Shown: piece by piece, positions 12,878 through 58,284 of the stretch | Numbering within the stretch: the first letter of the stretch is position 1 | Layout: every line of letters begins with the position of its first letter | Origin: Colletotrichum lupini | Taxonomy: Eukaryota; Ascomycota; Sordariomycetes; Glomerellales; Glomerellaceae | Reading direction: 5' to 3' | Assembly (NCBI RefSeq): GCF_023278565.1 | Contig: NC_064678.1 | Coordinates: 3,224,001 to 3,288,000, forward strand | Length of the DNA stretch: 64,000 nt | Notes under the pieces: model-generated | What the model saw: the letters and a program-made list of their open reading frames with translations, nothing else | The model's database searches: none | What the model was told of the DNA's origin: nothing | Program-made: the position numbers and the translations under genes

Positions 12878-13109
12878 TAAGCGCAAACCCGGGTCTTATT
12901 TTTATATACGTATACCCTACGGGGTAAGGTTATTTTATTTATTTTAGGCCTCTAGGCCGCACTCTAAGTTCTATCTATCGTCTACCTTCGGGTATTAAGT
13001 TTTTCTAAGCGTGGCCTAAATTAATTATTTTTAACTATTTTAGCTATTTATAATAGCTTCTCGCGTATCGTAGAGGTTAAGAAGTATATAGAAATATTCG
13101 AACTTAGCT

Positions 13110-35580: not shown

Positions 35581-38500
35581 GTCGGTTCTAATACCGTCTA
35601 GCGGTCCCTAATATATATCGATCTAGCTTTTTCGTAAAGCTACTTATATTATTTTTATTTATAAATCCTAAAGGAATTACCTTATTTAGAAGGATATAGC
35701 TACGTTAATTATATATAGTACTAGCCGACTATTTAAATAGAAAATATTAATAACGATTTCCTAGTTAAAGTTAAGCTTATTACGTAATTTAAACTTAAAT
35801 TTACGTAAGCTCTGCGCATTTATTTAATATTAATAATATACTTTCGTTAACTATTCTAGCGCCCCTATTTTAATATTATTATTACTTAATTACTTTAAGA
35901 GGTTATATAGCCTCGTAACTAACGGGTACCCGAATCTCTAATATAATTTTCTAAGCTCACTTTCCGTTAAATAATTAATTAACTTCGTATTATTAATAAG
36001 CTTTATAAATATATACCCCTATTGTTATTTAACTATTTTAAAATACTTATTACTAAAGATTTTATTCCTTATATTATTAAATATAATACCTAGTCGATTT
36101 ATATCTTTTAAATATAAAAAAAATGGGGTATTAATAAGTAAAATATAGAAAGTTATCGTTCCGGAGTACGTCTCTACTTCTACTATACCCAGGGCAACGA
36201 TTTCCTTACTTAGGCCGAAACTAATCCTTATAATACCCGCTATTAACGTATTAAGCGTTATTAATACAATCTTCCGTAGCGCTTAGAATTACCCTTTTTT
36301 TCTAATTAATTATTATAATACCTTAGTATTTAAAATAATCTTATAAAAATCGTCTAAGCTATACTTTTTGCTCGTATAAAATACTTATACGAGCTTAGTA
36401 TTTAAGGGATCTAAGTAGTATAAAAAGGACCCCTCTAGCTACCCCTAAATATATTTAGTACTATATTCCTTTTTTTTAAATATTAAAAGAAATAGTATCT
36501 TCTCTTTAATTATTAAGAGAATAGGCTTCGGCCTTATTAAATTTACCCTTTTAGCCGCCTCCGTATCTATTATCTAAAGGACCTTCCCTTACTATTTATA
36601 AATAAAAGCCTACTTATTAAAAGCTTCCGCTACCCTCTATTCGTTTAGCCTCGTATATTTTTTAAAGGCTAATAAGGTAAAAAAAGAGTAGTTAATATTA
36701 TCGATTTTATTATAATCTAATTCGTTAGTATAGGGGGTAAGATCTTCCTTATTTTCCGAATCTTTTATAGGGGGTATATATTTAAAGCTGCTATTTTAAT
36801 TACCGTTACTAAGTTCTATACCCCCAGATCTTCTTTTATATATAATAAGGAATTAGTTAAACTAACGAGGGTTAGTTTTATTATTTATTACCCTCGATCT
36901 TTTATACTATTTATATAATTTAATACGCTCTTTTTTAAAGTAGTTACTTAACTAATATCTATCTTTTTTATAAATATAGTATTACCTCTTTTATTACCTT
37001 ATTTATAAATTAAATCTCTACCTATTTAATAAATCTAGGCCTCCTTATTAACGATTACCGTATCTAGCCTCTTTTCCTTTTTTATTATATATTCGATTAA
37101 TTTAATATTATTAATAAGGGCCGTTGTATACTTAAAAATAAGTTTAGCGCGGCATTTTTACCTTAATATTAAAACTAAATCTTAGCCTCGAGTAAAGCGT
37201 TTTGTAGTTTTTAAGTACTTAGTATAGGGTTATTTTTACCTCTAGTATACGCTAAACTATAATATAAAAATATCTAACTTTCTGCTTATTTATCTTCTTA
37301 TTTAGCTAGGTTTTTCTTAACTTATTAATTTAATTAATAAGCTCTTTAAAGATCTCTACTCGCAATTTACCCTCTATTATCCTAACTATAAATATAAAAA
37401 AAATCGCTCGTAGCTTAGATAGGAGCTCTAGGTTCTTATTATAAGTCTCGAAGCGGCTTCGGATTACGTTAATTATATTAAAAAAGTCGTTTCGATCGAG
37501 ATTACGTACTACTTCGTAATAATAATTAGAGACTTTATTTATAAGTATAATATTAATTACTAAATAGTATTAGTATTCCCTAATTCCGACTTTTTTATAA
37601 TAATCGTAAAATATCGTTAGGGTTTTTTATAAGACCTTATACTTCCCCCTAGAGTATAATTTCTCTTTTAAAAAGATCTTTTTAAAGTTTATAAATTACT
37701 TCGTATTTATTATTAGATTTTCGGTCTCTATATACGATCTTTACGTCGCTATGTATTATTAATAACTTCGGGTCGTTTATTTCCTTTTTATTAGCTAATT
37801 AGTACCGAATTTCGTATTAGTAGCAGTAGCGAGTTATAAATCAAAATAGGTAAAATTATTAATTATCGTACTTTTAGTACTATATTTTACCCCGGTATAT
37901 CCTTTTATAACGATAGATTTCCGTTAGTAATTATAAAAAAGAAATCTAGGTCGTTTACCCTTTTTCTAAATTCGTTAAAACGATTATATACTTTATTAAC
38001 TTATACTTAGTTCTATAATACGAATTCCTCCTCTATAATTATCGCTATTAATATTTTATATAGCTCTCGTAATTATAATTATATTAGTAATACCCCTCGC
38101 CCGTAAAAGAATTTATTAATTACTTTTATAATTCCTAGGCTTATGCTTATAAACTATTCGTTTAGTTAATAACTAAGGTCGTTTACGATCTTATAAAATA
38201 GGGGTTACCCCTATAGCCCCTTTTTTTTTATAGACCTTAGTTAAATAGATTAATATTACGTTAACTTACTCGTTATTAAGCTAATCCGCAATTCTATATA
38301 TCCACGTCCCTTAATAATCTAGGTTAATATTTATTTATTTATAAAGGATTAGGATTCTATTTAGGATTAGGTTTTGTCCTTTTCTTCTTTACCCTAACTC
38401 GCTAAGGGTCGTACTCTAGCTTATACTTATATTAATAATTACTAGCGTATTTAATTTTAATAAAAATATATTTAATTCGCGCGCTAGTTATAGTAAATCC

Positions 38501-40052
38501 GTACTTTTATTACCTAACGAATTTATTAAAGTCTAAGAGATTCCTACTTCCTCTTACTATCTCGTTATTACTCTCGTTTTTACTATTTTTAATAATTACT
38601 ATTACCCTTCTAAATCGCTAACTATCGTACTTACTAAGATCCTCCTTTTTATTTAATATAAAAAGGTAAGTTTTAATAGTTCCTTTTTATAATAGTAGTA
38701 ATAGACGTTTATATTATTATAAAAAAATATAATAATTAGTCTCGGGATCTTTATTAATTACTAATTTCCGCTATCCTATATACTTCTAGCCTCTTAAGCC
38801 TTATACTCTTTATAATTTTTAAATAGCTTCCTTCCTTAACCTACCTCCTTTAGGGTAATATTTTATAAGAATAATTAAAAATAAACGCCGGGTAGTTTAT
38901 AAAAGAGCTATATAAGCTATTAAGAACTATATAGGTTATTAAATACGGTTAATAAAGTTAAGCCCTCTTTTTTATAAAATCGTATATTTTAAGGACTTAT
39001 TAAAAATACTTACTTATTATTTATACGTAGTAAAGTTAGATATTTTAAAAATTTTATTTTTTATAGCCTCTCGGTACCCTATTTTATATCTTTTAAGTAG
39101 TCCTTTTTATAACCTAATTATACTTAGGTAATTATCGCTTACTAACGATCCCTTTTATTATTTAGTTAATTTTTTAAAATTAATAATCTTGCGCCGGGAG
39201 CTAATATAAAAAGAAGCCCTTAAGCGGCTTTTTAAAAGATTCTTTTTTTTCCCCTTAAATCCTCGTCTTTTTAGCCTTTTCTTAAGCTAATAATAACTTT
39301 AGTAAGAGGTTATAGGACTATTTTAGGGTAGTTACTTTTTTTTTAAGTTAATCTCTAAGATCTATAATACTCTTAACTTAATATTATTAAAACCTCTAAA
39401 TCCCCTCCTTCCTCGTTAAACCGTCCCCTATATTATATTCCTAAGTAATACCTAGGGGGTAATTAAAAGAGCTATAAAAAGGTCGTTTAAATTATAAACT
39501 TAAGGTCGTACTTATAAAATCCTCGTAATAATAAACTTTTTTATATATTATAAATCTCTTAGCTTAATAACTCCTATAGGGTTATTTTTATTACTAAATA
39601 AGAATATTTACGTTTAGAAATCCCCTTTTTTAATCGTATAGTTCTTTTTTATATTATATTATTAAGCTCGTTCGTCGCGCTAATTAATTAAGTAAGTAGT
39701 CGTTACGTAAGTATTTCCTTTTACTAATTTAACTAGTTAATTTCTAATTACGGGCCGGTTATAAAAAAGTTATTTAATAAAAAAGCTACTTAGGGTAATA
39801 ATAAAAGGCTAGTTATTTAAGCGGTTTTATTAATTAACGTAATTTAACATAGTAAACGTCAACCTCTTATAAATAATAAAGGGCTACGATTACTTAATTC
39901 CGTATAATATTTAAAAATCGCTTCTTTTTTTATCTACTTTTATAAAGTTAATTAGTACGAATCTCCTATCCTATATAGTATTAAAAAGTCGTCTTTTTTA
40001 TATAATAAAATACTTTACCGATTTATAATAATAGAATTTAATTATTAATTAG

Positions 40053-40262: not shown

Positions 40263-41151
40263 CCTTAGCAAAATGTCTGTGTCATTAGCATAATATCTCT
40301 AAAAGACGAATATAGTCTTTAAGGCTAATGTCAGAGTCGGAGGCTAAAAGTCTGCATTGAGTCTGTTAAGATATCGAGACAACCCAGTTCTTGTTCATTG
40401 GTATCGACGATTGCTGAGAACATATTGGCCGTGATGACACATTTCGACCGGAACATCCTCACTCTTCTTGTTGATGAGACCTTTTCGGATAGTTCCAATC
40501 CTCACTTCGTAATAGTCAATTTTACCCGTCACCACGAGGTTTTGTTACTCAAGGTAGGTAAAAACCTGAAATGGGTGGGATATCACAAAGTGTCATCGAA
40601 GAATGAGATGGTGGAGCTTGCTGCGGAACTTCTTGAGAGAGCTGTCTGCCTTTATTAGAAGATCTTAGTTTTGGAAAAGTCGAGAGAAGGTATGTGGCCT
40701 CTTGGCAATTTGTTGCATCTGTGAATCGTGCGAACTTTTCCGCCAACGATGTGGACTTGAGCACATGTCTTGGTGCACGAAGATAGGATCAGTCACTCAG
40801 ACAAGAATGCATTCTCCCCTGCAGAGTAAGCATGATTGAGAGTCGAGATACCATGAGAAATATCAGATTATATGATCACTAGGTTCTGCAAGTCCAGAAA
40901 TTTGGTAAGATGTAAACATTCAGCATTAAAAAAGTCTGTCAAAGACTTTTGCAACAACGCGTGCTTATCTCAGGCCGTGAATATCGAGTCTAAGACTCAT
41001 GCTTCTCAATCATGTACCGTTCCGAGTCAATCCTCCTATACAACCTGACTGGCTGAAATCACTCCAACATTTCGGTCGACGCTGATGGTATCATTTCTAC
41101 ACTCCGTGCTTACTCAGCCCCTCTTGTTTGGTATCATATTAAAATCCAAAA
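40263..41151. other. Noncoding flank between Copia copy A and the 8-Cys secreted protein
   Basis: Normal composition. An in-frame stretch from an ATG at about 40434 to 40658 (about 75 codons) has no recognisable domain; I do not call it a gene. Confidence 0.45.
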
Positions 41152-41627
41152 TTAATCGCACTTTGAGCCAATAGTACCACTGGCGTCGGCACATACACCG
41201 GAGTTCTGAGCCTGGATGCAAGAGTCCTTGAACTCGTTGCCGCCAAATCCAGAGACGTACCGTGTCCGGCCGCCATCCTTAGGAGCAATAGTTGCGCAAA
41301 CCTGATGACAATGTCAGAATCATGCCTTGAAATCAATTTGAGGAGGTCCTATTCGACTTACGTGCCACAGCATTGTTGTGTTAACGTTTTGCGGGTTGTC
41401 ATTCTCGAAGATCTTTTGCGATGTCCGGTAAACATCGCAGGCCTTTTCCGTGAGACACTTATGAGATACATCATTGATAACACAGTAGCATTTGGCGTGT
41501 TCGTTTGCAAGCGCACTGGTTCTGTCAGTCATGATCTAACTAAGCTTGGGTTGCGAGCGGTGCTGACTTACACCGGAAAGACGAGGAGCGTCAATGAGAA
41601 ACAGAAGAATAAAAGTCTCGTAAACAT
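41152..41627 (-). CDS. Small secreted cysteine-rich protein (8 Cys), effector-like
   Basis: Exons 41627-41572, 41521-41362 and 41301-41152 give 121 aa; introns are 50 and 60 bp, both with GTAAGT donors and CAG acceptors, and the reading frame is open only after splicing. Residues 1 to about 22 form a strong signal peptide. The mature part has eight cysteines (30, 32, 41, 47, 74, 100, 109, 120), an even number that could make four disulfides, and ends SKCD. No known domain recognised. Size, secretion signal, cysteine content and position 0.9 kb from a RIP-degraded retrotransposon fit a candidate effector or secreted antimicrobial. That role is inference; what is seen is the signal peptide, cysteines and splice structure. 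Confidence 0.8.
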
Positions 41628-43048
41628 GTTGTTGGATGGTGTATTTAAGGTTGACCACGAGAGGAGCGAGGAGAGCAACTGAGGAAGGTGAGAGTTGAGT
41701 GTAAGACACAGTGATCGGTTGCGGGAATGATGTGAGGTTAACAAGTACTGTAGGGCTGGGCCAAACTGTGGTCTAGACTAAACTTATGTACCTGCATCTG
41801 GTATTTGGAGTGGACGCGGGCGTAATTTAGGAAATGCGGGAGAGTTCAATTGCCATTTGAGTAGCTCGACAACTAGACCAGATAAGGATGGTCCCTGACG
41901 CGTGGATCAATTCGACTTAATAAACTAAGGAAATGTCAGGATAATGGCAGCAGCTTGGCCATTGCTCTGGGGAGTTCTCCACCACGATAGGGAATGATCC
42001 GACCTGAATCATGTTCCCCCCGTGGCATCCGATGATCCCGCCGTTCCATGACGCCGGGCGGCTACTGCACGCCGCCTTGTCATACTACCTCAATTAACAA
42101 TATGCGGGTCATGACGGACGAGACCGCCCCCAGTCGTTGGTATTCTAGTTCGGTTTCTGGAAAAAATCTCGTATCGCGGGGTGATGTGACAGCTGAGAGC
42201 CTGAAAATGATAGAGATGGGACGGCGTTTGCGCGAGTCAAACTAAGCGGACACTTGGGCAGAAGCTTGGTTGCGGCTCAGACAACGGCCGAGTGTTTGAT
42301 ATAGAAAGGCAAAATAAATTGCTAAGCCACTTAGTACGAGCAGCATTGATCAACAGATCACGGGACCTGAGCGAGACCGCTTATCACTTGAACCATATTC
42401 CGCAAATAATCTTCGCGGAAACAAGCAGGTTCCCAGATCCATTCCCTGGCGACGCGTGACTAGTTGGTCAACTCCATCAGTTGTCACGCGGCGATATTGG
42501 ATGACACATGTTAACCTTACTCGTATTTTCCCGTGCCTTCCTATCAAGCTTGAAGCAAGTCAACAAAAAAGGGGAAGACGTGGAGTTGATGTCCGTGCAT
42601 GCGGAGGAAGATAGTCGCGTGACAATGCGGGCAGAACGGAACAGACTTGAGAGTTGATCAAAAGCAGAAGATGGCAGGCAGGAGAGTAAGTCGGCCGAAA
42701 GTCCCAGTTGCATCTAGCTGTCGACGCGAGGTTTAGGAAGTCAGAACGAGGCTGGTGATTCAGTAGTTCTGACTCATTGCATACGTAATTGAATGAGAAA
42801 GATGTAGCACTGAGACATCATATCATTAGGAATCTGGGATATTCTGCGAGCATTCATGCACATGGAAAAAATAACTCCGTCACTTGAGCAGCCGTTTTCA
42901 AGGCTCTCCATTACACAGTCCAACGACCTTTCCTCCAGCACAATGGCTCTAGCTGGTTCTCCAATAACTTTCGCACTCCTTAACCTGGGTTCTGGATGTT
43001 GTTAGAGAAGCCTCAATCTATGGACAACCCAGACTTCTTACCTGTAGT
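41628..43048. other. Intergenic between two secreted-protein genes
   Basis: About 1.4 kb without a supportable frame. The part next to 41627 must hold the promoter of the 8-Cys gene; TTAAATA on the minus strand at about 41645 could be its TATA-like element. An intron-like stretch just downstream of the next gene (GTAAGA.. to ..ATCCAG, about 43041-42989) could be a 3'-UTR intron. Confidence 0.4.
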
Positions 43049-43465
43049 CTATGCCGAGTTATCTTGGGTACAGGCGTCAAGTCTTTGCGTCGTGAGGTCA
43101 TGGCCTTCAAAAAGATTTGCTCCCCAGCCCTCCCATCCAGTAACGACCTGATCGCTAGGCAAAGGGTCGCAGCTGTTGGGGTTGATGCCAATGCGGAACT
43201 TGAATGGTGCGGAGTTACCGCCAAATGTGACGTTTGTCAACGCTTGGAGGTTGCCCTTTGCGTCCTTGGAGTTTTCGATGGTGCATTTCGTACCGGCAGG
43301 GAATGTTCCACTCAAGCCGCATCTAACGACTCCTGCAGGTTCGTCCCATTTGAGCCACAGCCAGTTGGTATCGGCCCAGTTGTCACCCCAACAGCAACTG
43401 TCAGCTGCTGCAATAGCAACGTATGCTGAGGTCGCAAAAATTTGAAGAATAGACGTAGAACGCAT
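43049..43465 (-). CDS. Small secreted Trp-rich protein with six cysteines
   Basis: Intronless, 138 aa. Signal peptide 1 to about 21 (MRSTSILQIFATSAYVAIAA). The mature part has six cysteines (24, 25, 49, 61, 99, 132), starting with a CC pair, and seven tryptophans (26, 30, 35, 37, 40, 111, 114), five of them within 15 residues. The middle part (GTFPAGTKCTIENS, LTNVTFGG, PFKFRIGINPNSC) looks like a compact beta-rich domain. I do not recognise the family. Lies between two other secreted-protein genes in the TE-bounded island. Possible roles are effector, lectin-like or wall-binding protein; none is shown. Confidence 0.75.
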   Translation of the reverse strand: MRSTSILQIFATSAYVAIAAADSCCWGDNWADTNWLWLKWDEPAGVVRCGLSGTFPAGTKCTIENSKDAKGNLQALTNVTFGGNSAPFKFRIGINPNSCDPLPSDQVVTGWEGWGANLFEGHDLTTQRLDACTQDNSA

Positions 43466-44160
43466 GATGGAAAATAGAAGAACTAGTGCCGAAGGAAGTT
43501 TTGGAGAGTTTGGTGATAAGTTCGACGACGGAGGATAGTTCCGGCTTTGAGTGTTGGGTGCTGTAATACTCTTATCAGACTAATGACGCTTGGACGGGGG
43601 AAGAACGTCGGACGAACGGTAGAGGCTGTGGGAACGGGAGGCCTGGAAGGCTGATAGCAGGAGATTGACTCAAAGTGTCTCTGGGCAGCAATTAACTAGT
43701 AAGCCTCGAAATAAGTTGTCGAGTAATTCGCAGTTTGGACCGGTTCCGAGGAAACACGAGGGACGTTGAGGCGTAAATTCGCGTTGGCAGTTTAACTACT
43801 TCAACTCATTTGGCTCCCAATCTACCTGGACACGCCGCGTTATCTTTAATCAAAGAAAGTTGAACGCCGATCTTATGTGTACCTGATTCATGTCAGGATA
43901 ATACTTGCAAAGCCATCCTTCATCAAACCTTGTTCCTGAAGGCTGGGTCGTGGCTTTAGCGCAGTTTGCGGGGAACCCGAAATCATGCGAGCACGTCCCC
44001 AAAGAGGCATCGAGCAACGGCGGCAACTCGCCAAAGTGGGTGAAGGTGGCTTTTATTTACTATGCCCTGGCTTCTTGCTGTTTTCCGAAAGCTAGTGCTC
44101 GACACTATTGTCTGTCTTTCTCTTGTTCGTTCGCGTTGCAGCTCGCAACATACAATCATA
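43466..44160. promoter_or_regulatory. Intergenic region between two divergent secreted-protein genes
   Basis: About 700 bp separates start codons pointing away from each other. It must contain both promoters. No clear TATA box found; several open frames are not supported. Confidence 0.45.
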
Positions 44161-46285
44161 ATGGTTCTCTTGAACCTTGTCACTCTCTTTTCACTCGCCG
44201 TGAGCGCGTCTCCGGTTGCATCGATCCCGCGTATTGAGGCTCAAGTGCTTGATGAACGCGCAAATCCCACCGTTGACAGTTGTTCCTTCCATTCCGAAGA
44301 TGGGTACGATACATAATGTTTCAAGAGTTATCTATAGAAGTGCCACAATTGCTAATGTCTTTGTCACCAATATAGCATTCAGCCTGGGTGTTGGGAGACT
44401 CTGCAGATGAACAACCATCTTAACGTAGGCTGAGATTCATAACCGTGTCTATGGTGTCCATACTGACAATATGACTAGGACTGGTGGTCCAAGAACTCTG
44501 CTAGATGCAAGACGGCAGAGAAGGGATTTGCTGAATGTTATCTCGATTCAGCTGTATGTTACACTAGACCACCATGTTCGTGCCCAGTTGCCCCGACTAA
44601 CACCAGCACAGGGTTACATAACGTGGAGCTGTGACTTCATTGCCCTCAATGGATGCACGCCGCCCCCGAGTGGCCGCAACGCCGATTATGCTTCATACCA
44701 GGAGTTCTACGTAGGTTCTACAAGCTTTGCAAACGCTCCAACTTTGCTAATAAAGTTTTGATAGGTCTTCTGGAACATTTATTGTGAGCACTCGTGCTAT
44801 TGGCGGCCTGTGAAACTTCACTGACATCATCGCGACATTAGCCATCAATCTTTTCTTCACTAATTATCACCAAGCCCTCCTGAACGGCCAAGCTACCGCA
44901 ATGTAAGTTCGCGTTGGTGATGATATGATGCTGGATTGCTGACTCTTCACCAATAGTGGTGCGGTCGCCGAGATCGTGAAGACTGTTTCGCCACCCAAGA
45001 CTAAGAACCCCAAAACCCCTCTATTCGGACCTATCTATGCCGTTGCACTTGGTCAATTTGCTGTAAGTATCATAACTCATCATATACGAGAAAGCGATAG
45101 TCCTGACAACCAAAAAGGCTCTGGGTCCTTTGCTCGGTAGCTCTCTCGCCGCTAGCATGGTCTTTGCTCCTCTCATCGGTGCCCTCGGTGGTGGAGCCGG
45201 TTTGTTCAACATTTTGTTCCCCACCAAGCAGGTCCAGGAGGTCCCCTGGGAAGGTCTCTCAGCTGCTCTTTCAGAGAACGTCAACGAGTACCAGAAGAAC
45301 GTTGGCGAGGCATTGACTAAGATCCAAACCGACTTCGACACATTCTACTCTCTAGTTTCCAACGGCGGTTTCAGCCAGGTGGGAAAACACATTCTACAGC
45401 CAACATCGACTCGGAGCGCTTAGACTGACCGTTTTGCGACAGAAAATGAACACCAACCTGCCTGAGAACACCGATTTCATGTACCACAACCTTCTAAAGT
45501 GGACGTTCAACCAGGCGCTGCAGCAAGCAGACTACTTTGCCGTCAAGAAGTGAGTTCACGACTCTCCTCGGAATAACCCAAATTTGCTAACTAGTCTATA
45601 GCCCTGGCGTTGATCCCCGCAAGATTCCTATCGGCCCGTACGACTGTACTAACCTGGATACCTACGGCACCTGCGGCCCTATCTGGTACGATGGCAAGGA
45701 TTCCTATGGCCTTGCGAGAGCAAATGGTACGTTACATTTCCACGGACCGTGGCCGACGCAACTCTTACCCATACTGACATTATCTACAGACATTGGCATG
45801 GACCAGATGAAACCAATTCTGGACGTCGCATTCTCCAAGAACTGGACCACGCCGCATGAGCTCTACATCGACTCCCAGCAATGCCAAGGCAAGAATGGCT
45901 CCGAATCCTTTGATGTGAAGGATCTGTCACTGAGTTGCGCCGTAAGTGCTCATCTGTTGAATGCCCCTTCTCTTGACCTTTTTCGCTGACCGCAATATGC
46001 AAATAGTCGAACATCCCCGTCTGCGAGTTCAACTTTGACTACAACCCGTATCAGTCGCTCATTGATCGCACCAACCCGCCCGAGTTCAAGAACTGCCCCA
46101 ATCAGAGAGGCTATGGCACACCCATGTTTTACAGCGATGATGCCGGTGTTCCTCTTTCGTATCTTGGCCCCTTTTTGGTACGTGCTCCTGCAAAATATCA
46201 TTAACTCAACCCAACTCCTGAGTCATGACACTAACAATCGAGTCAACAGATGTCCGGTGTCATCTATAATGAGAAGAGTGGTTGA
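44161..46285 (+). CDS. Secreted protein of unknown function, 13 exons (possibly the DUF7872 type)
   Basis: I assembled 467 aa from exons 44161-44303, 44376-44424, 44479-44553, 44612-44710, 44765-44783, 44842-44902, 44957-45062, 45118-45378, 45443-45549, 45602-45726, 45790-45941, 46007-46177 and 46250-46285. All 12 introns are 52-72 bp with GT..AG ends, and every junction keeps frame. A signal peptide ends near residue 21. The N-terminal third has paired cysteines and Trp (PGCWETLQ, DWWSKNSARC, ITWSCDF). A Gly/Ala-rich hydrophobic stretch (GPLLGSSLAASM, PLIGALGGGAGLFNILFP) lies near the middle. The C-terminal part again has cysteines (GPYDCTN, TCGPIWYD, NIPVCEF). The layout recalls a fungal secreted family I believe Pfam calls DUF7872, but I cannot verify this. 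One exon is only 19 nt. Confidence 0.8.
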
Positions 46286-47078
46286 GGCAGATTACTTTAG
46301 TCGGAATTCCTCAAGACATCATAGATACCAGGGATTCTCCTCGAGAGTATTAGACGTACGTTGCGAATACTGCGAAATGACTCAAATGCTGGAAACGGCC
46401 GAGATAAATTGATATGTTTAATTTTTGAGTTGTTCCATCTCGTTTGCAATACTGTGGTATGACTGAGTACAGTTGCGTAGTCTGCAACACACTGGACTAG
46501 GAACCAGAAGTATGCCATAATTAGTCATTCGATCATCGCTTCAGGTGTGTGTGTCAAGATTATTGTTAGTCGCTAGGTGCTACATTTCTGCGATTGCCAA
46601 TGCAACGGGTGAGAACACATGCTTCACCAAGGGAAGAAGAGATCGCCATCCGGTTGAGATTGATCATAGCCAGGTGAACATTAAGACCACGCAGAGCGCT
46701 CTACGCGTTTGAAGGCTTAGTCAAGAAATGATTGTAGCAGAGTAGACACCTCAGATTAGACATAAACATAAGTACTACTGAAAGCGGAAGTTCGATAGAT
46801 GTTGTAGAATAGAGAAAGACAAATGGTGATTCCGCTGCTGGCAATGAGTCAGTAATAGTTGTCCCAGAACTGCAGACTGTTTCTCCGCAAACGTTATCAC
46901 TGAGGTGAGAATTACATTTGCATCATGACTTCTATTTGAGGATAAATTACTTAGTGTATGCTCGGAATGTCCTCACCAGTCAAAAGAAGCAGCCACTAAG
47001 GCAGAGAAATGTATCACAGTCCGAAAACGAATGGTTTGTGTTACAGAACGTATCAAGATCGTAGACTACAATATAGAG
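46286..47078. other. Intergenic, no supportable gene
   Basis: About 800 bp between convergent genes. Nothing recognisable; it should hold both 3' ends. Confidence 0.5.
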
Positions 47079-49466
47079 CTAGTCAGATTGATCCAAAGAC
47101 CGAGCTAAGGCAACAATATTTTCCGTGCGAAATGCCACCTGCCCATTGGCATACGTGCCAACATCTTCTACTTCGGAACCTTTGACAACATTTTCATCAT
47201 CCGCAGAGTCCGAAAAGGACTTTTCCTGGTTCTCTGGCTTGCTGTCCTTGGCACTGCGCCCGATGAGCTCCAAGATGCAACCAGTCTCCTCCTCCTTCAA
47301 GAAAAACTGACGAAGACCGGTGGCAACATCGTAGCTGAGATCTTCCGCGGTAGTATTCCAACCTTTGGCTCTTACTTCAGCAAAAACGGCGTCAACATCT
47401 TCAACTTCCAATGCAACATGGTGAAGGTAAGCTCCGTCGTGACGCATCATCAGCTTGTAGAACACCGAATCAGGGTTCAATCCTTCCGTAAGGATAACTA
47501 CCCGCTTTGAATCACAAGGAATGCCCATAACTTGCATCAGTCCATCATCACTACCATCAGCAGCGGACCCAGTGTTAACAGTAAAAGTGCGGAGTGGAGT
47601 GAAACCCAACATTCGCTCGTGGAGAACCTTCATACGCTTAGTGTCGGGCATGATGGCAGCATAATGGTCGAGCTGGCGCGTCGATCCCGCTATGGAAGTC
47701 AGGACATTGGGAGAAGTTGAAAAGTCTTCGTTGGCTGGCTCTTCAGCTGGGGCCTGGCATAAGCTCATTCGGTATCCAGTTTCCTCGCGCAGAAGAACAA
47801 GCTCAGTTGAACCATCCCGGAGACGTCGATCTTTAAAAGTAATCCTTTGAGCTTCGAGAACTTGACGAGCCTTGGCGATGTTGTAGACAGAGAAACGAAC
47901 CGAAAGCCCGATGTCTCCAGGTCCGGCGCTCTCTGGAGCTTTGACAATGCTGAGGGTTGGATCGCCGAGACCTGGGAGTCTATAAAGGCTCTCATCTTTG
48001 TTGAACTTGGCGTTATAGACCTCCTTGACTGTTTGGGCAGCTCTCTCAACCACATGCGATGTAAGGGTCAAGTGAGCCATTCGCTTAACGCCGAGCAGAT
48101 TGACTGCGCCTGTTCTGCGCCGGGTAGTCGCAAGGTCCTCGCAAGCTTCCCAAAGAGCTATGTTGCTTGCTCGATATCCGACGCTGCCGAAAGCGGTGTT
48201 GATGAACGCCTTGGTGTCATTGGCGGATGCCTCGAGGTTGGATAAAGCATAGCCCTTCAGCGCGAGGCCGCTGCAGGCTCGCATGAAGAGGTTGGAGGTT
48301 CCTGAGTTGCTAATCCACTCTGGAAGCATCCGAATTGATGCAGAGTCAAGTTTGGACAGTGTTTCGTCCCTGCTCTCAACAGGGTTGAAGATGTTATTAG
48401 CGCCGGCTAGGATAAATCGGGCGCCATGGGGCACTTCAGCGAAGGTTTTGTCGCTGAGAGTGGAGAGTGCTTTGGGTGTGAGGATGTACCGCTGAGCACA
48501 GGGAACAAAGACCTCGCCCTGGGAAGCGGCGAGGAAGTCGACAAGGTGTTCTTCGTCAATTGAGCCAACTCTGCGCTTGGCATACAAAGCTGACTGTAGC
48601 TCGGCCTTTGTAAGACCAGCCTCTAGGCTCCGAGGGTCAAGTCCTGAGACAGGATTCTTCTCGGAAGCACGCCGATAAGCTTCGATCGAGGCGCAGTCTA
48701 TGCCATTGTCGTTGACCAGAAAACCGTACTGGCTGGAGATGGCAACTACCCGGCCAATACCCAGCTGGGCAGCTGCTTGGGCAAAGGTGGAACCGACGCA
48801 ACCGAAGCCCTGGAGAACCAGGCGAGCTTGCCCCATAAGCTCCGGCTTCGTGTGGGTAATGAGCTCTTTAAGAGTGACAGCCATCACGTAGCCGACACAG
48901 AACTCGCTGAGGCCCCATCCACTGTTATCAAGCTGTTCTCCGAGGAGATCGTGGATCTCCTTGGGGTTCGAGCCGCAGTAGCCAAGTGAACGACTAAGCG
49001 CGTCGAGAGCGGTCAAAGTGCCCGGAGAGCAGTAGGCTCTAGCGTGTCTGTCGATGATGTCGTGGTCTGTGTTGAGGTCTCCCCCTGTGCCCCAGTACTC
49101 GGAAAGGACAGCTGCGTTATCGCGAATGAAGCGCTCCAAGACAAGAGGAGCACGTGAGTCCTCATGAGGGAACCTAATGCCGCCCTTGGCACCAACGACC
49201 TGAGGCTGAGAAGAGACAGCGAGTTTGGCACTCATAGAGCGGGCAATGTCGCGAACCTCGTTGAGAGTTGCGTCCTCATGAAGGAATAATCCTCCACCCG
49301 AGTGAGTAGGCACGGGTGAGTCGATAACTATCCAGCCCTCTGCCGGAGAAAGCTCATCTTTCCAGTGCCAGACACTGCAGCCTTGGATGACCTGGTGGGG
49401 TGGCATTGAAGGGGAAGTCTCACTAACAGAAGTGCCGGGTTGAGTAGAGGCTGAGATGGAAGACAT
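47079..49466 (-). CDS. Fusion of an ELFV-type amino-acid dehydrogenase with a VOC (HPPD-like) dioxygenase
   Basis: Intronless, 795 aa. Residues about 25-470 are a Glu/Leu/Phe/Val dehydrogenase: Lys81 and Lys94 (in VGAKGGIRF) match the substrate-carboxylate and catalytic lysines, Asp130 in TGGDLNTDH matches the catalytic Asp, and GFGCVG (220-225) is the NAD(P) Rossmann loop. The lysine that binds the side-chain carboxylate in glutamate dehydrogenases is replaced (HSGGGLFLH), as in Leu/Phe dehydrogenases, so a non-acidic amino acid is likelier. Residues about 518-572 and 597-737 form two vicinal-oxygen-chelate modules; the second has His601, His683 and Glu733 at positions fitting the iron triad of 4-hydroxyphenylpyruvate dioxygenase. 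Inferred activity: oxidative deamination of an aromatic amino acid, then dioxygenation of the 2-keto acid. A candidate minus-strand TATA box lies at 49590-49583. Confidence 0.88.
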   Translation of the reverse strand: MSSISASTQPGTSVSETSPSMPPHQVIQGCSVWHWKDELSPAEGWIVIDSPVPTHSGGGLFLHEDATLNEVRDIARSMSAKLAVSSQPQVVGAKGGIRFPHEDSRAPLVLERFIRDNAAVLSEYWGTGGDLNTDHDIIDRHARAYCSPGTLTALDALSRSLGYCGSNPKEIHDLLGEQLDNSGWGLSEFCVGYVMAVTLKELITHTKPELMGQARLVLQGFGCVGSTFAQAAAQLGIGRVVAISSQYGFLVNDNGIDCASIEAYRRASEKNPVSGLDPRSLEAGLTKAELQSALYAKRRVGSIDEEHLVDFLAASQGEVFVPCAQRYILTPKALSTLSDKTFAEVPHGARFILAGANNIFNPVESRDETLSKLDSASIRMLPEWISNSGTSNLFMRACSGLALKGYALSNLEASANDTKAFINTAFGSVGYRASNIALWEACEDLATTRRRTGAVNLLGVKRMAHLTLTSHVVERAAQTVKEVYNAKFNKDESLYRLPGLGDPTLSIVKAPESAGPGDIGLSVRFSVYNIAKARQVLEAQRITFKDRRLRDGSTELVLLREETGYRMSLCQAPAEEPANEDFSTSPNVLTSIAGSTRQLDHYAAIMPDTKRMKVLHERMLGFTPLRTFTVNTGSAADGSDDGLMQVMGIPCDSKRVVILTEGLNPDSVFYKLMMRHDGAYLHHVALEVEDVDAVFAEVRAKGWNTTAEDLSYDVATGLRQFFLKEEETGCILELIGRSAKDSKPENQEKSFSDSADDENVVKGSEVEDVGTYANGQVAFRTENIVALARSLDQSD

Positions 49467-49963: not shown

Positions 49964-50168
49964 TATTAATATCCCTATTATAGGATAGTTAGTTTAAACC
50001 GTAATTAATAAAAAGATTAATTAAACTATATAAATATTTACGTAATAAGTATAAAAAGGAGGTTCTAACTATAAGTTAGACTAGTTATAATAATTATAAA
50101 TAGGGCCCCTAATTAGCCTTTACACAGTCGGCCGTATATTATAATTAAATTAAACTTTTAATTTAATA
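49964..50168 (-). repeat. Left LTR (205 bp), family 2 copy B
   Basis: Begins TATTAATATCC and ends TAATTTAATA, aligned gap-free to the other three family 2 LTRs. Shows additional CpG-to-TpA changes. Confidence 0.9.
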
Positions 50169-51218
50169 CTAACTTTTTTTTTATTTTATTAATTTACTTA
50201 TTATAGTTAAAAATATAATTTAACCTCGGGTCCGTTTATTAAGTTATCTCTTTTTACCCTTTTTTTCTATTTTTTTTTATATAATTTATTTTTTATTTAT
50301 ATATTAACTTTTTTACTATTTACGAATCATTTTAATCTCTTATTAAGTATTATTTTTATAAAAGCGTTAGCGAGGTTATTATTATTATTAATTTAACGGA
50401 TTTTAAGTATTTTGCGCTTTTTATATAATTACTTAAGGGCTATAATATTAATTATAAGCCTCTTTTTTTTTATTGTTCTTAATTTAATAAAATATTTATA
50501 TAATAAATAGGAATTAATATAAATAACTATTAAAATTAGTAAAAAGCTAGGTTAATTAATAATCTTTTTTAATATTATTAAAATTATATAAGAGAGGTTA
50601 ATACCGTTAACTATATTATAGACTTTTAATATTAATATACTCCTCGTTACTTATTTATTTTTAATTAATAAGTAGTAGATAATATTTTTATATATATTAA
50701 ATTCGCTTTTATTTATACTCTTATTAATTAGGATAATAATATACCCTAATTAAGAAGTAAAGTTATTATTATTCGTAAATAACTTATTAATAAAAATATA
50801 GAGCTTATTAATTATAAAGTTAATTAGGTAATAAACAAGGCCTCGATTAAGATTTATTTATTATTACTTAAGCTACTTATTAAGTATTTCGATATCTTAT
50901 TTAATTAGATCTATAGCTTACGCTACTTTAGTATAGTTAAAAGTCGCTTTAGGCTAATATATATTTATAATATATACCCCTTATATAAGCTTAGCTTTAT
51001 ATTACTTTTTAATATTAGTTATATTCGGATTAATAAAATTAATCTTTTTACTTTACTCTTTTTATTAAAAAACGACGGTTTCCTTTTTAATTATAAAAAT
51101 CCTATTATTAAATACTAAGGGGGTATTTATTATAAGGACCTTTTTTAGCTTTATTATAAAGCCCGCTTTTTAGAGCTCCTTATTTTTTTTTATAAAGTTA
51201 ATATTAAATAGGTTTAAT

Positions 51219-51233
51219 ATATTATCGGTCTAT
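51219..51233. repeat. Left 15-bp target-site duplication of the nested insertion
   Basis: ATATTATCGGTCTAT occurs here and again at 52359-52373. Copy A has this site once, uninterrupted, at the matching position (about 34.09 kb). Confidence 0.85.
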
Positions 51234-51676
51234 GTGGTGGTTTTTTTTTCCGGCTTTATAGGCACAAAAGATCGACCTTAACGGGATTACGCTTTTAAGG
51301 GAAATCACACGATATAGTATACTTTTTAACTATATAATATGCGCAATGTATCCTAAGTACGCGCTTAACGTAATATAGTGATTTTGATACGAAAACTGCT
51401 ATTTAATTTAGGATGGGTAAGCTGCCGCGGCGGCGCCGGCCAGAAAGGTCGACGGTAGAGGTCGGCCGTAATAGTTAGCTATAATAGTCGGCCGCTATAG
51501 TCGGCCATAATAGTTAGAGGCGGCCTTCCTTAACTATAGAGGTTCTAAACTTTAATAGTAACGTAGAGGTTTCTAGAGAAAGGGCTAAATAGGCTAATAT
51601 CTATTACTTAGAGCTCGTAAAGATTCTTTCTATTCTTATCGCTTTTAATATTGCCTAAAACTACTCTCTATTTAAA

Positions 51677-51741
51677 CTAAACAAATCTACTAAACAAATC
51701 TATTAAACAAATCTACTAAATAAATCTACTAAACAAACCTA
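51677..51741. repeat. Five tandem copies of a 13-bp unit
   Basis: Unit CTAAACAAATCTA repeated five times in a row with one or two substitutions per copy, inside the nested insertion and upstream of its reading frame. Confidence 0.85.
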
Positions 51742-51830
51742 TTAATATATAAACTACTACTTAGATAGCTAGTTAGATAACTAGTTAAGAGGTTAGCTAG
51801 TTAAAATACTACCTCGATAAGAACTTAAAG

Positions 51831-52319
51831 ATGCCTATCGATAAGTCTACCCCTCTCGGGCTGGGCGCCCTCTTTGGCTAGCTCGACGCTATAGCTATTA
51901 TGGCTAACGTAGGTATGCTTAAGAAGTGGCGAAGTACTTTCTAGTAGTACGGAATTCGGTTAGGCGATATTATAAGCGCTATAGATAGCTAGGCTAGTAC
52001 GGATATTAAGATCTAGTATATTAACGCCGGCCTAGTTATAATAGTTATAATAGACGGGCTAGAGGTATATAGGGTTAGGGCGATAAGCTAGCGCCTTAAA
52101 TAGCTCCTACGGGACCCCCCGGGTAATAATAATACTTATATAAAAGAATAGATTATGCTAGACCTAGCTGCCTACGCGGGCTAGTACTAAGAGGTCCTGT
52201 GCGCGTTAGAGTGGGTAAAGCTCGCCCTGTAGGCGGCTAGAAGCGGCAGAAGGTTGGGAGCTGTTTTAATTAGTAGTTAGGTATGGAGCGCAATATACTT
52301 AGTTTTCCCTAATACGTAA
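51831..52319 (+). pseudogene. RIP-inactivated reading frame of the nested insertion
   Basis: From ATG 51831 to TAA 52317-52319 a single register gives 162 codons of protein-like sequence (for example MPIDKSTPLGLGALFG and LDLAAYAG) broken by 12 stops: eleven TAG and one TAA, no TGA. TAG stops are what CAG-to-TAG RIP makes in a glutamine-rich protein. I recognise no transposase, reverse transcriptase or integrase motif; it could be a structural or accessory protein of a non-autonomous element, or a captured gene. Confidence 0.55.
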
Positions 52320-52331
52320 TACACGGTACGG

Positions 52332-52355
52332 CCCCGGCGGATTGCTCCGTCGGGG
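52332..52355. repeat. GC-rich hairpin at the 3' end of the nested insertion
   Basis: CCCCGGCGGA and TCCGTCGGGG pair over 10 bp (one G-T) around a TTGC loop, three bases before the end of the insertion. Hairpins near the 3' end occur in Helitrons and in some non-LTR elements; the 15-bp TSD argues against a Helitron. Confidence 0.75.
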
Positions 52356-52358
52356 GGA

Positions 52359-52373
52359 ATATTATCGGTCTAT
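52359..52373. repeat. Right 15-bp target-site duplication of the nested insertion
   Basis: Exact repeat of 51219-51233. Confidence 0.85.
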
Positions 52374-52609
52374 ATTTTAACGATTTTAAATTAGTCGCCT
52401 TTATATTTAGAGATTAGTAAGTACGGGTTATATATAAATATAATTATTAATAATTAATTAATATAGAAGTCGTAATAAGTAGCTTACTAATAAGTACCCG
52501 ATTCTATAAGCCTATATAGTAGCTTAAGTATTTTAATAATCGTACTTTTTAAGTACTTATTAACTATTCTTTTAGTAAATAGGCTAGGATTTTCTTTATA
52601 AGCCCTATA

Positions 52610-53830
52610 GCTGATTAAGTATAAGCCTAGGTAATATTATAGTTCTAAATTTCGTATCCCTTTTTTTATAATAATACTATTAGTATTATTATTAATCGTT
52701 AGTTATAGTACTATATAATAGGCGATTATATAAGTAGCGTCGCTTTTTTAACGTCGCTATACTTTTAAATTACGTATTTAGACTTTTTATATAGCTAGGG
52801 TGTTTTTTTCTTTTTAATTTTATAAACTATTTACGATTTAAATATACGGAGGTTTATATACTTCTTTAGGTTATAAAAAATAAATTAATAGACTCTTCAA
52901 TTATAAAGAGTATTTATTTTAATAAGATCTAATCCTTTATATAGCTTTTTAATAGTTATAATTATACCTTCTTTACGTAGTTTAATTATTAACTCGAAAT
53001 CGGCTTTTTTTTTTATATAAAAAGTATTAATTACCTCGTTATTAGTAATAAATTACTACGTTAGGGCTTACTATCGTGGTCTTTTGCGACGTTTTACTAA
53101 TAGTATTAGTACCCTTTTAGTAATTTCCTTTTCTTTATCGTTTATTAGTATTATTATAATAACTTTATTAAAAATAATTTCCTATACCTTTACTACGGGT
53201 TAAATAGTTTCCCCTAGCTCTTTTTTTTTATAAGTTGAAAATTACTTCATTAGGATCTATATAATACGGTCTAATTACTATAATTAATATTTTAAGTAGC
53301 TAGTTACGATTTTTTATAATTATATAAGAGCGCTTATTAACGGAAATTAATTTATATAGCCTAGCTTATTATTAAGTAATTTTGCACTATATTTATATAT
53401 CTAAATTTAGTAATATATTTAAATTATTTTTTATATTAGGCTTATTATATATAGTAATTACTTTATTAACTTACTTTTTTATACTTATTTTACGTAGTAT
53501 TTATATTACTTTCTTAACTACTTAGGCTCGTTAATTTATATTTAGCGACGGTAATAAGGCTAAGGTCGTTTTTAAATATATTTTAAATACTAATAGCGTT
53601 AGTACAAGTCCGTTAGGCCCTATAGTATTATTATAGTATTTAAATACTATCTAGAGGTATTTATTATTAATAAAATCCGGATTTTCTTTTTTAATAATTT
53701 TGAACGCCCTTTTTAACTACTAATATACCCTTTTTACTTTTTTAATATTATAATACGCTTTAATAAGTACGATTTTTAGTTATATACCGTAAGCTATTAT
53801 ATTCTTTTTAAGTTTTACTAACTTAAAACT
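52610..53830 (-). pseudogene. Copia pol remnant (integrase end and reverse transcriptase), copy B
   Basis: Colinear with 34340-35580 of copy A; the same blocks are visible with more substitutions and stops. Confidence 0.65.
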
Positions 53831-56800
53831 AGTATTAATATCGGTTTTAATACTATTTAGTAATCCTTAGTATATATTAATCTATTCCCTTTATAGGGCT
53901 ACTTATACTATTTTTATTTATAAATCCTAAAGGAATTACCTTATTTAAAAAGATATAGTTATATTAATTATATATAGGACTAGCCGATTATTTGAATAGA
54001 AAATATTAATAACGATTTCTTAATTAAAGTTAAGCTTATTACGTAATTTAAATTTAAATTTGCGTAGGCTTTGCGTATTTATTTAATATTAGTAATATAC
54101 TTTTATTAACTATTCTAGTACCCTTATTTTAATATTATTATTACTTAATTATTTTAAGAAGTTATATAGCCTCGTAACTAACGGGTACCTAAATCCCTAA
54201 TATAGTTATCTAAGCTTACTTTTTGTTAAAAAATTAATTAACTTCGTATTATTAATAAGCTTTATAAACGTATACCCCTATTATCGTTCAATTATTTTAA
54301 AATACTTATTACTAAAGATTCTATTTTTTATATTATTAAATATAATACTTAGTTAATTTATATTTTTTAAATATAAGAGAAATGGGGTATTAATAAGTAA
54401 AATATAAAAAGTTATTATTTCGAAATACGTTTTTATTTTTATTATACTTAGGGCGACGATTTCTTTACCTAGGCCAAAGCTAATTTTTATAATACTTATT
54501 ATTAACGTATTAAACGTTATTAATACGATTTTTTATAGCACTTAGAATTACGTTTTTTCATTTATTAACTATTACGATACTTTAGTATTTAGGATAATCT
54601 TTTAAAATTATCTAAGCTCTACTTTTTATTTATATAAAATACTTATACGAGCTTAGTATTTAAGTAATTTAAGTAGTATAAAAAGGACCCCTCTAATTAC
54701 CCCTAGATTTACTTAGTATTATTTTTTCTTTTTCAATATTAAAAGAGGTAGCGTCTTTTTTTTAAGCGTTAAGAAAATAGACTTCGGCCCTATTAAATTT
54801 ACCCTTTTAATTACCTTTATATTTATTATTTAAAGGACTTTCCTTTACTATTTATAAATAAAAGCTTATTTATTAAGAGCTTTTATTACCGTTTATTTAT
54901 TTAGCCTCGTATATTTTTTAAAGGCTAATGGGGCGAAAAAAGAGTAGTTTATATTATCGATTTTATTATAATTTAATTTATTAATATAAGGGGTAAGATC
55001 TTTTTTATTTTCTAAATCTTTTATAAAAAGTAAATGTTCTAAGCCGCTATTTTAATTACTATTACTAAGTTCCGTACTCCCGGATTTACTTTTATATATA
55101 ATAAGGAATTAGTTAAATTAAGAAGGGTTAGCTTTACTATTTACTACCCTTAACTTTTTATACTATTTATATAATTTAATATACTCTTTTTTAAAGTAAT
55201 TACTTAACTAATATCTTTTTTTTTATAAATATAATATTATTTTTCTTATTACCCTACTCGCGAGTTAAATCTCGGCCTATTTAACGAATTTAGGCCTCTT
55301 TATTAGTAATTACTATATTTAACCTTTTTTTTTTTTTATACGTTTAATTAACTTAATATTATTAATAAGGGCCGTTATATACTTAGAAATAGGTTTAGTA
55401 CGGTATTCTCGTTTTAATATTAAAGCTAGATCTTAGCTTTAAATAAAGCGTTTTATAATTTTTAAGTACTTAATATAGGGTTATTTTTATTTTTAATACG
55501 TACTAAACTACGGTATAGAGATATTTAACCTTTTATTTATTAGTTTCTTTATTTAGCTAGGTTTTCATTAGCTTATTAATTTGATTAATAAGCTTTTTAA
55601 AGAATTTTATTTACGATTTACTTTTTATTATCCTAGCTATAAATACGAAAAGAATTATTTATAGCTTAAATAGGAGCTTTAGGTTTTTATTATAAGTCTC
55701 GAAATAGTTTTAAATTACGTTAATAATATTAAAAAAGCTATTTTAATTAAGATTACGTACTACTTTATAATAATAATTAAAAGCTTTATTTATAAGTACG
55801 ATATTAATTACTAAATAGTATTAATATTCCCTAATCCTAACCTTTTTATAATAATTATAAAATATTATTAGGGTTTTTTATAAGACCTTATACTTCCCCC
55901 TAGAGTATAATTTCTTTTTTAAGAAGATCTTTTTAAGGTTTATAAATTACTTCGTATTTATTATTATATTTTTAATATTTATATACGATCCTTATATTAT
56001 TACGTATTATTAGTAATTTCGGGTCGTTTATTTCTTTTTTTATTAACTAATCGGTACCGAATTTTGTATTAATAGCGGCGACGAGCTATGGATCGAAATA
56101 AGTAAAATTATGAATTATTATATTTTTAGTATTATATTTTACCTCTATATATCCTTTTATAATAATAGATTACTATTAGTAATTATAGGGAGGAAATTTG
56201 CGTCGTTTACTTTTTTTTTAAATTCGTTAAAGCGATTATATACCCTATCGACTTATACTTAGTTTTATAATATAAATTCCTCCTCTATAATCGTTATTAT
56301 TAGGACTTTATATAGTTTTTATAATTATAATTATATTAATAATACCCCTTACTTATAGAGGAATTTATTAACTACTTTTATAATTTTTAAGCTTATACTT
56401 ATAAACTATTTATTTAATTAATAATTAAGGTTATTTAAAATTTTATAAAATAGGGGTTGCCCCTATAGCCCCTTTTTTTCGTAAACCTTAGTTAAATAGA
56501 TTAACGCTACTTTAATCTATTTATTATTAAGCTAATCTATAATTTTATATATTTACGTTTTTTAATAGTCCGTATTAATATTTACTTATTTATAAAAGAT
56601 TAGGATTCTATTTAGGATCGGGCTCTATTCTCTTTTTATTTATTTTAATTTACTAAGGGTCGTACTTTAGCTTATACTTATATTAATAATTATTAATATA
56701 TTTAATTTTAATAAGGATATATTTAATTTACGTACTAGCCGTAATAAATCCGTACTTTTATTATTTAATAAATTTATTAAAATCTAGGAAATTCTTATTT

Positions 56801-58284
56801 TTTATTATTATTTTACTACTACTCTCGTTTTTATTATTTTTAATAATTACTATTACCCTTTTAGATCGCTAGCTATTATACTTATTAAAATCCTCTTTTT
56901 TATTTAATATAAAAAAGTAGGTTTTAGTAATTCTTTTTTTTAATAATAGTAATAAACGTTTATATTACTATAAGAAAATATAGTAATTAGTTTTAAGATC
57001 TTTACTAATTACCGATTTTTACTATTTTATATATTTTTAACTTCTTAAGCCTCGTACTCTTTATAATTTTTAAATAGCTTTTTTTTTTTAACTTATTTCT
57101 TTTAAGGTAGTATATTATAAGAATAATTAAATATAAATACTAAGCGGCTCGTAAAAGAACTAAATAGGTTATTAAGTATAGTTAGTAAAGTTAAGTCTTT
57201 TTTTTTATAATATTATAAACGTTAAGGACTTATTAAAAATATTTACTTATTATTTATACTTAATAAGGCTAAATACTTTAAAAATCTTTTTTTTACGGCT
57301 TTTTAGTACCCTATTTTATATTTTTTAAATAGTTTTTTTTATAACTTAATTACGGTTAAGTAATTATCGCTTACTAATAATCCTTTTTATTATTTAATTA
57401 ATTTTTTAAAATTAGTAATTACGTACTAAGAACTTAATAAAAAAAAAGCTCTTTAGTAGCCCTTTAGAAGATTCTTTTAATTTTTTTAGAGCCGTATTTT
57501 TTAGCTTTTCTTTAAGCTAATAATAATTATAATAAGAAGTCGTAAGATTATTTTAGGGTAGCTACCTTTTTTTTAAGTTAATTTCTAAGATTTATAATAT
57601 TTTTAACTTAATATTATTAAGATTTTTAAATCCCCTTTTCTTTTATTAAACCGTTTTTTATATTATATTCCTAAGTAATATTTAGAAAGTAATTAAGGGG
57701 GCTATAAAAAGATTGTTTAAATTATAAGTTTCGAGGTTATATTTATAAAATCCTCGTACTTTTAAGCCTTTTTATATATTATAAATCTCTTAGTTTTATA
57801 ATTTTTATATGGGTTTTTATTATATTTATTAAAAATATTTACTTTTAGAGATCCCTTTTTTTAATTACGTAGTACTTTTTTATATTATACTTTTAAGCTC
57901 GTCCGTTATATTAATTAATTAAATAAGTAATCGTTACGTAAGTATTTTCTTTTTATTAATTTAACTAATTAATTTCTAATTATAGGCCGGTTATAGAAAA
58001 GTTATTTACTAAAAAAGCTATTTAAAGCGATTATAAAAAGTTAGTTATCTAAACGGTTTTATTAATTAACGTAGTTTAATATAATAAACGTCGACCTCTT
58101 ATAAGTATTAAAAAGCTATAATTACTTAATTTTATATAATATTTAAAAATTACTTCTTTTTTTATTTACTTTTATAAAGTTAATTAATACGAATTTCTTA
58201 TCCTATATAGTATTAAAAAGTCGTTTTTTTTACGTAGCGAGATACCTTACCGATCTATAATAATAGAATTTAATTACTAATTAA

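Follow-up and report, generated by a model that had tools for sequence, protein, structure and literature searches.

Three described enzymes of the vicinal oxygen chelate (VOC) type, 4-hydroxyphenylpyruvate dioxygenase (HPPD), hydroxymandelate synthase (HMS), and hydroxyglutarate synthase (HglS), are two-substrate alpha-ketoacid oxygenases, and HglS has no significant identity to HPPD and HMS and uses a different 2-oxo acid, 2-oxoadipate (PMC7286885). This precedent makes it possible that there are other VOC alpha-ketoacid oxygenases that are distinct in sequence. HMS is generally at least 1000-fold slower on aliphatic 2-oxo acids (PMC3720870), and mammalian HPPD takes ketoisocaproate (PMC7856465). 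Here, we describe a gene of Colletotrichum lupini, located in a stretch of 64,000 nucleotides (positions 3,224,001 to 3,288,000 of contig NC_064678.1; hereafter the window), that encodes a dehydrogenase of the Glu/Leu/Phe/Val (ELFV) superfamily fused to a tandem VOC module. We tentatively favour the reading that this protein is a bifunctional two-step dehydrogenase/2-oxo-acid oxygenase. The ELFV half would turn a non-acidic L-amino acid into a 2-oxo acid by NAD(P)+-dependent deamination, and this 2-oxo acid might be channelled to the second half; there, it would chelate an Fe(II) bound by His601, His683, and Glu733 of the second VOC domain, O2 would drive the loss of CO2, and the Fe(IV)-oxo species would hydroxylate the product in place, with the C-terminal tail closing the pocket. 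The product would be a hydroxy acid shorter by one carbon, as with HMS, HPPD, and HglS. The simplest reason for the fusion would be that a producer of a 2-oxo acid was joined to its possible consumer. The chemistry would be like that of HglS/FLO7 (DUF1338), a likeness in the proposed reaction.

The gene is a minus-strand open reading frame (ORF) at 47079..49466, stop codon included, that runs for 795 codons from its ATG within a stop-to-stop open frame of 811 codons. The plus strand across 47079-49466 is interrupted by stops, and a single consensus scan of the coding sequence showed nothing resembling an intron. An earlier note, made from the letters alone, had placed a continuous intronless frame at these coordinates without stating the strand and had described it as one protein joining an amino-acid dehydrogenase to an HPPD-like dioxygenase; the frame, its limits, and the joining of two halves all hold. 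The translation is identical to a database entry from C. lupini (P0002), and both halves were found by profile in 41 of 43 database matches (this entry counted), so the ORF is neither a chance frame nor two genes run together, and the fusion is an authentic protein conserved among fungi. Of the two matches lacking it, P0042 (590 aa) has just the dehydrogenase half and P0044 (440 aa) is a distantly related glutamate dehydrogenase (GDH); there are shortened members among the 41, the VOC half being most reduced in P0025 and P0035. The named sources are Colletotrichum, Claviceps, Fusarium, Plenodomus, Pestalotiopsis, Jaminaea, Parajaminaea, Trametopsis, and Calcarisporiella, and thus span Ascomycota, Basidiomycota, and Calcarisporiella; the remainder are metagenome proteins. 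Some gene models are longer: two from Fusarium (P0026 and P0027) run on into a beta-lactamase-like domain and that of Calcarisporiella (P0043) into an enoyl-CoA-hydratase-like domain, which may be larger fusions or joined gene models. Among the titles listed by literature searches that did not reach most subscription journals, none dealt with this fusion, and a C. lupini infection transcriptome paper (PMC7589765) contains none of four terms looked for in it.

Residue counts given below refer to an alignment of 38 of 44 proteins (P0001, which is the window's ORF, plus the 43 matches), from which P0002 (identical), P0025, P0026, P0027, P0042, and P0044 were omitted. Each half has diverged strongly from the enzymes characterised so far, as might be expected if one of them were a non-catalytic regulatory or structural relic and the protein carried out a single reaction. 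Yet, identity to the C. lupini protein falls to 33% in this alignment while the catalytic residues of both halves stay near-invariant across the 38 rows, which makes a relic very unlikely. A search of the C. lupini genome (63.4 Mb, 12 contigs) with the whole fusion protein matched a single place, the one in the window (C5:3224001-3288000). The same genome encodes one separate canonical HPPD (454.5 bits against a cut-off of 277) and has two further places above the ELFV cut-off, which we take, from their translations, to be NADP- and NAD-type GDHs.

The dehydrogenase half (this and all other features of the fusion gene lie on the minus strand) includes the ELFV dimerisation domain (residues 33-132, 49071..49370; PF02812 ELFV_dehydrog_N, 29.2 bits, cut-off 25.3) and the Rossmann domain (residues 192-389, 48300..48893; PF00208 ELFV_dehydrog, 47.8 bits, cut-off 23.4), and in the search with the full protein both Pfam matches, like that to Glyoxalase/Glyoxalase_4 in the other half, exceed the gathering scores. 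By alignment with GDHs, it has the features of the superfamily: Lys81 (49224..49226; 35/35 rows with a residue there), Lys94 in GAKGGIR (49185..49187; 36/36), Asp130 in GGDLNT (49077..49079; 36/37), and the GxGxxG motif, here GFGCVG at residues 220-225. By analogy to the structures of GDH and phenylalanine dehydrogenase (PheDH), we take Lys81 to be the lysine binding the alpha-carboxylate, and, from the aligned GDH positions, Lys94 and Asp130 to be the catalytic lysine and aspartate. The difference lies in the motif KGGIR of GDHs, which reads GGGLF here: residue 57 is Gly in 34/34 rows covering it, and therefore the lysine that binds the side-chain carboxylate in GDHs has been lost. Lys81, Lys94, Asp130, and GFGCVG had been pointed out in the earlier note, as had the missing lysine, and the three residues and the loss are borne out across the family. 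Residue 394, presumably in the region of GDH Ser380, is Phe in 38/38 rows. None of four NCBIfam GDH equivalog models passed (the best, NF041398, gave 34 bits against a cut-off of 620), and a profile search of the PDB matched GDHs best (4.5e-15) and PheDH more weakly (2e-8). The protein shares with GDHs and Leu/Trp-type dehydrogenases both Pfam domains, the Lys/Lys/Asp set, and the Rossmann motif, and differs from them by GGGLF, by inserted segments, and by forming a clade of its own. This supports a dehydrogenase half that looks catalytically complete and lacks the lysine for acidic side chains.

This clade extends beyond the fusion. A profile of the dehydrogenase half matched stand-alone relatives in bacteria and Pandoraviruses, with 30-39% identity for the near-full-length ones; these rare bacterial and the Pandoravirus proteins, named Glu/Leu/Phe/Val dehydrogenase, carry the same GGGLF and PEWVSN signatures, but the VOC half is absent. 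In a tree of 45 rows, 37 (19 fusion and 18 stand-alone) lie on one branch with support 100/99, apart from six GDHs and two other bacterial proteins, and within it the fusion rows and a nine-row group containing the Pandoraviruses form a 100/99 clade; the fusion rows including Calcarisporiella are supported at 91/73 only. This tree, which raised long-branch and composition warnings, contains no Leu/Phe/Trp-type row. The latter type is represented in a second tree of 27 rows, where the clade (14 rows, 100/99) is separate from six GDHs and from four Leu/Trp-type rows that group together at 100/100 with the fusion dehydrogenase outside, and where the Calcarisporiella row is unresolved relative to the Pandoravirus group. 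The label Leu/Trp stands here for 268-387 bits to the TrpDH ScyB model, under its cut-off of 600, and the tree has no verified PheDH row. We found no characterised member of the GGGLF clade. The clade looks rare: among 396 and 398 sampled genomes from two groups, with at most four candidates scored per genome, only the seeds matched at E <1e-130, and the 14 and 1 further matches, at 2e-41 to 9e-52, are taken to be ordinary ELFV proteins.

Several stand-alone proteins deserve a separate mention. A review (PMC9270025) lists proteins of Pandoraviruses under glutamate dehydrogenase. Those that we identified in the GGGLF clade (P0057, P0058, P0059, and P0065, named glutamate or E/L/F/V dehydrogenase) are devoid of the glutamate side-chain Lys, which makes the glutamate label of the clade's viral proteins doubtful; a search for contigs showing the surroundings of the viral genes returned none. 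An ELFV protein of 384 codons from Saccharothrix obliqua (G002, L044:1327-2478, minus strand) has the motifs GGTRM and GGAKAGIR, and with a branch length of 3.13 in the 27-row tree it joins neither the GDHs nor the Leu/Trp-type rows nor the GGGLF clade. In Streptomyces sp. F001 (L014:2084-13337), the clade dehydrogenase sits in a biosynthetic-looking cluster, amid two DegT aminotransferases, FAD oxygenases, a methyltransferase, and a Trp halogenase. In Ca. Paracaedibacter symbiosus (L016:7974-12634), it is followed on the same strand by a cupin, a fusion of a VOC domain with a D-threonine-aldolase/alanine-racemase-like domain, and an O-methyltransferase. This neighbouring VOC domain was considered as a relative of the VOC half and set aside, having no significant similarity to it and being fused to the D-threonine-aldolase-like domain.

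The C-terminal half contains two VOC-type domains. The first (about residues 462-580, 47727..48083) matches, weakly by profile, the second domain of the same protein as well as methylmalonyl-CoA epimerase (MMCE; global P ~1e-5), and six sequences inspected show no complete metal set in it. The second (about residues 596-737, 47256..47681) is supported by Pfam (PF13669/PF00903, with Glyoxalase/Glyoxalase_4 matches within 598-709) and by MMCE and HPPD chains in a profile search of the PDB, and carries the putative Fe(II) site. By alignment, this is a His/His/Glu triad like that of HPPD and HMS, formed by His601 (47664..47666; 37/38 rows), His683 (47418..47420; 38/38), and Glu733 (47268..47270; 37/37 rows with a residue there), the three residues that the earlier note had placed in the C-terminal module. 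Gln720 (47307..47309; 37/37 rows with a residue there) aligns with Gln379 of AtHPPD (LRQFF for LLQIF), and Phe722 and Asn783, the counterparts of AtHPPD Phe381 and Asn423, are retained (residue roles in PMC6750108). The PDB search with the VOC half, whose profile was built from 36 of the 38 rows (P0035, with a partial VOC half, and P0024 omitted), returned 55 rows at E <=10, of which 30 are named HPPD.

A further element might point towards HPPD and HMS. The C-terminal tail, FRTENIVALARSLDQSD (residues 779-795, 47082..47132), resembles the gating-helix motif FGxGNFxxLF of HPPD and HMS, the family version being GN[I/M]xxLA; the columns of P0043 are unreliable here, where its crotonase extension aligns. 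In the PDB profile search, the best stretch fell in the tail region for 19 rows, all of them HPPD and many of one protein (profile 271 or 279 to 326-328). When the family was searched with an HPPD-tail window, the top-scoring position lay among the last 30 residues in 33 of 36 proteins (the C. lupini protein and its identical entry counted), with a family median of 19.5 and a score of 17.2 for the C. lupini protein, and, conversely, a matrix of the family tails had its best window at the C-terminal motif in 5/5 HPPD/HMS. We regard the resemblance as suggestive.

A different reading starts from the core of the second domain: the VOC half would be an MMCE-type isomerase or epimerase that shifts a proton beside a carbonyl and so racemises or tautomerises whichever 2-oxo or amino acid the dehydrogenase handles, with no oxygen chemistry. 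Many comparisons of the core lean towards it, and these and other observations weigh against an oxygenase. First, the best PDB match of the VOC half is an MMCE, 1jc4 (3.4e-7), with HPPDs next (1.1e-5), and 11 of the 30 HPPD rows match outside the tail, several of them in the HPPD N-domain. Second, hhalign placed the second domain nearer four MMCEs than the C-domain of five HPPD/HMS, with a global P of 3.8e-15 against 1.7e-7 when the tail was included and of 1.0e-15 against 2.2e-6 when the core was compared by itself, and gave the first VOC domain no clear match to the HPPD N-domain (P 0.04). Third, at E 0.01, the MMCE model TIGR03081 matches 37/38 members and the HPPD model TIGR01263 only 21/38. 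Fourth, the tail statistics are modest: in 3/36 family proteins, a stretch away from the C-terminus scored better as a tail-like window, 67 control proteins gave a mean of 11.3 and a maximum of 25.6, shuffled tails had a 99th percentile of 16.8 and a maximum of 34.6, and the family matrix reached p 0.004 to 0.1 against shuffles, depending on the HPPD/HMS. A search of the PDB with the single tail sequence returned no HPPD, and the tail profile put an unrelated chain first (E 0.69), HPPD making up three of its four matches at E 1.5-1.6. Fifth, profiles picked up no ORF resembling HPPD or the family in six bacterial loci with a stand-alone dehydrogenase. The enoyl-CoA-hydratase-like extension of the Calcarisporiella protein might also be seen as a CoA-pathway partner of an epimerase, if it is not a fusion of gene models.

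The scores for the C. lupini protein are nevertheless well under both curated cut-offs (34.5 bits against 114.95 for TIGR03081, 15.9 against 277 for TIGR01263), so that by score the VOC half falls in neither family. Membership in HPPD by profile was discarded, the best MMCE score exceeding the best HPPD score in every comparison made. What separates the protein from MMCE is the predicted metal site. The fourth-ligand position of MMCE, a role that we take Gln65 to have in the enzyme of P. shermanii, is nine residues ahead of a conserved Ser. There, residue 658 is Ile, Val, or Phe in 37/37 rows with a residue there, whereas Gln or Glu occupies it in 4/4 MMCEs examined and in 1jc4. This argues for a three-ligand rather than an MMCE-type four-ligand site. 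The aligned MMCE also has neither tandem VOC domains nor the conserved C-terminal tail. With these differences, and despite the likeness of the catalytic core and of the pattern DH...HH...E found in most MMCEs examined, we consider an epimerase unlikely, if still worth weighing. With HPPD and HMS, on the other hand, the protein shares two VOC-type domains, the second of them bearing the His/His/Glu set, and a Gln at the LLQIF position, and its C-terminal end resembles their GN[F/I]xxL motif; it differs from them by a core nearer MMCE, by the missing loop of the HPPD YYD segment, by a longer linker ahead of the tail, and by the dehydrogenase fused on. The description as HPPD-like stands for the tandem architecture, the triad, and Gln720, tentatively for the GNxxxL tail, and fails for the core and for the family score.

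The two-step dehydrogenase/oxygenase that we favour leaves the question of the substrate. The earlier note proposed that Phe or Tyr is converted to an arylpyruvate and then to homogentisate or a mandelate. Retention of Phe722 and Asn783 would suit this proposal, as would residue 784, at the position of AtHPPD Phe424, which is Ile or Met in 35/37 rows. It is also Ile in a protein of Streptomyces sp. F001 that we take, from its gene neighbours, to be HmaS-like. The change F337I in HPPD, at the same helix position as 784, leads to some hydroxymandelate being made, with a loss of about 98% of the activity (PMC3739788). Yet, AtHPPD requires the network Ser267-Asn282-Gln307-Gln293, single mutants of which are about 12- to 3722-fold less efficient (PMC6750108), and by alignment this network is replaced in the C. 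lupini protein. In an alignment anchored on Ser667 and His683, Gln293 and Gln307 correspond to Val668 and His682; Ser267 and Asn282 correspond to Gln645 and Thr660 with HMMER or to Met644 and Leu659 with MAFFT, the two differing by one column at residues 644-660, and are kept in neither. These replacements make 4-hydroxyphenylpyruvate an unlikely substrate and homogentisate an unlikely product, and a canonical HPPD is already encoded in the genome. We thus see little chance that the Phe/Tyr scheme applies, and an aromatic substrate would be a guess; another 2-oxo acid, aromatic or otherwise, may be used instead.

The order of the steps could also be the reverse, with the oxygenase acting first and the ELFV half then carrying out a reductive amination that supplies a small-molecule pathway with a non-proteinogenic amino acid. 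ELFV dehydrogenases are reversible, the stand-alone dehydrogenases of Streptomyces sp. F001 and Ca. Paracaedibacter lie among biosynthetic-looking genes, and an O-methyltransferase (58928-60037, plus strand) and an AMP-binding enzyme (61741-63361, plus strand) are encoded within a small island of high GC content, some 9-14 kb away from the fungal gene. However, an HPPD/HMS-type product is a hydroxy acid, which would need an extra oxidation ahead of amination, and both of these genes are separated from the fusion gene by an AT-rich block affected by repeat-induced point mutation (RIP), so that a biosynthetic cluster around the latter is no more than possible. We hold this reverse order to be improbable.

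The blocks with strong RIP-type bias (TA/AT 1.45-1.98, (CA+TG)/(AC+GT) 0.04-0.22) are at 12001-18000, 34001-40000, and 50001-58000, and to the right of the window's end the sequence is still mostly AT-rich. The fusion gene lies in an island between such blocks and is itself not RIP-affected. Next to it, the GC-rich stretch at 40500-46900 returned only itself in a DNA search of the genome, and 14 ORFs at ~40.3-46.9 kb had no Pfam match over cut-off (one had a match below it). Elsewhere in the window are genes for a multicopper oxidase (5212-6447, plus strand), a cytidine-deaminase-type protein (21376-22671, minus strand), ATG7 (24083-25441, plus strand), and an MFS transporter (27672-29060, plus strand).

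A search for stand-alone relatives of the VOC half, in which the 7,994 candidates sharing the most words with it were scored, gave four matches: three pieces of 172-260 aa and P0034, a protein that carries the dehydrogenase half as well. No relative of the VOC half was found in viral contigs, nor any of the whole fusion protein in a scan of genome contigs. It is possible, if rather doubtful, that the protein represents a third family, distinct in sequence, of two-substrate alpha-ketoacid oxygenases, in which an epimerase-like VOC core was joined to its own 2-oxo-acid-making dehydrogenase, with a patchy presence in fungi and a dehydrogenase half shared with giant viruses.

The locus offers two uncharacterised types of enzymes: an ELFV clade whose Pandoravirus members seem to carry the wrong label of glutamate dehydrogenase, and a VOC metal enzyme that stands between the epimerases and the alpha-ketoacid oxygenases. 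Engineers build routes from amino acids to hydroxy acids out of separate enzymes (e.g., PMC10991500). If the two steps are coupled, the fusion would do this naturally in a single protein, taking an amino acid to a hydroxy acid of shorter chain, and it could lead to an as yet unknown metabolite that several plant-associated fungi derive from an amino acid.

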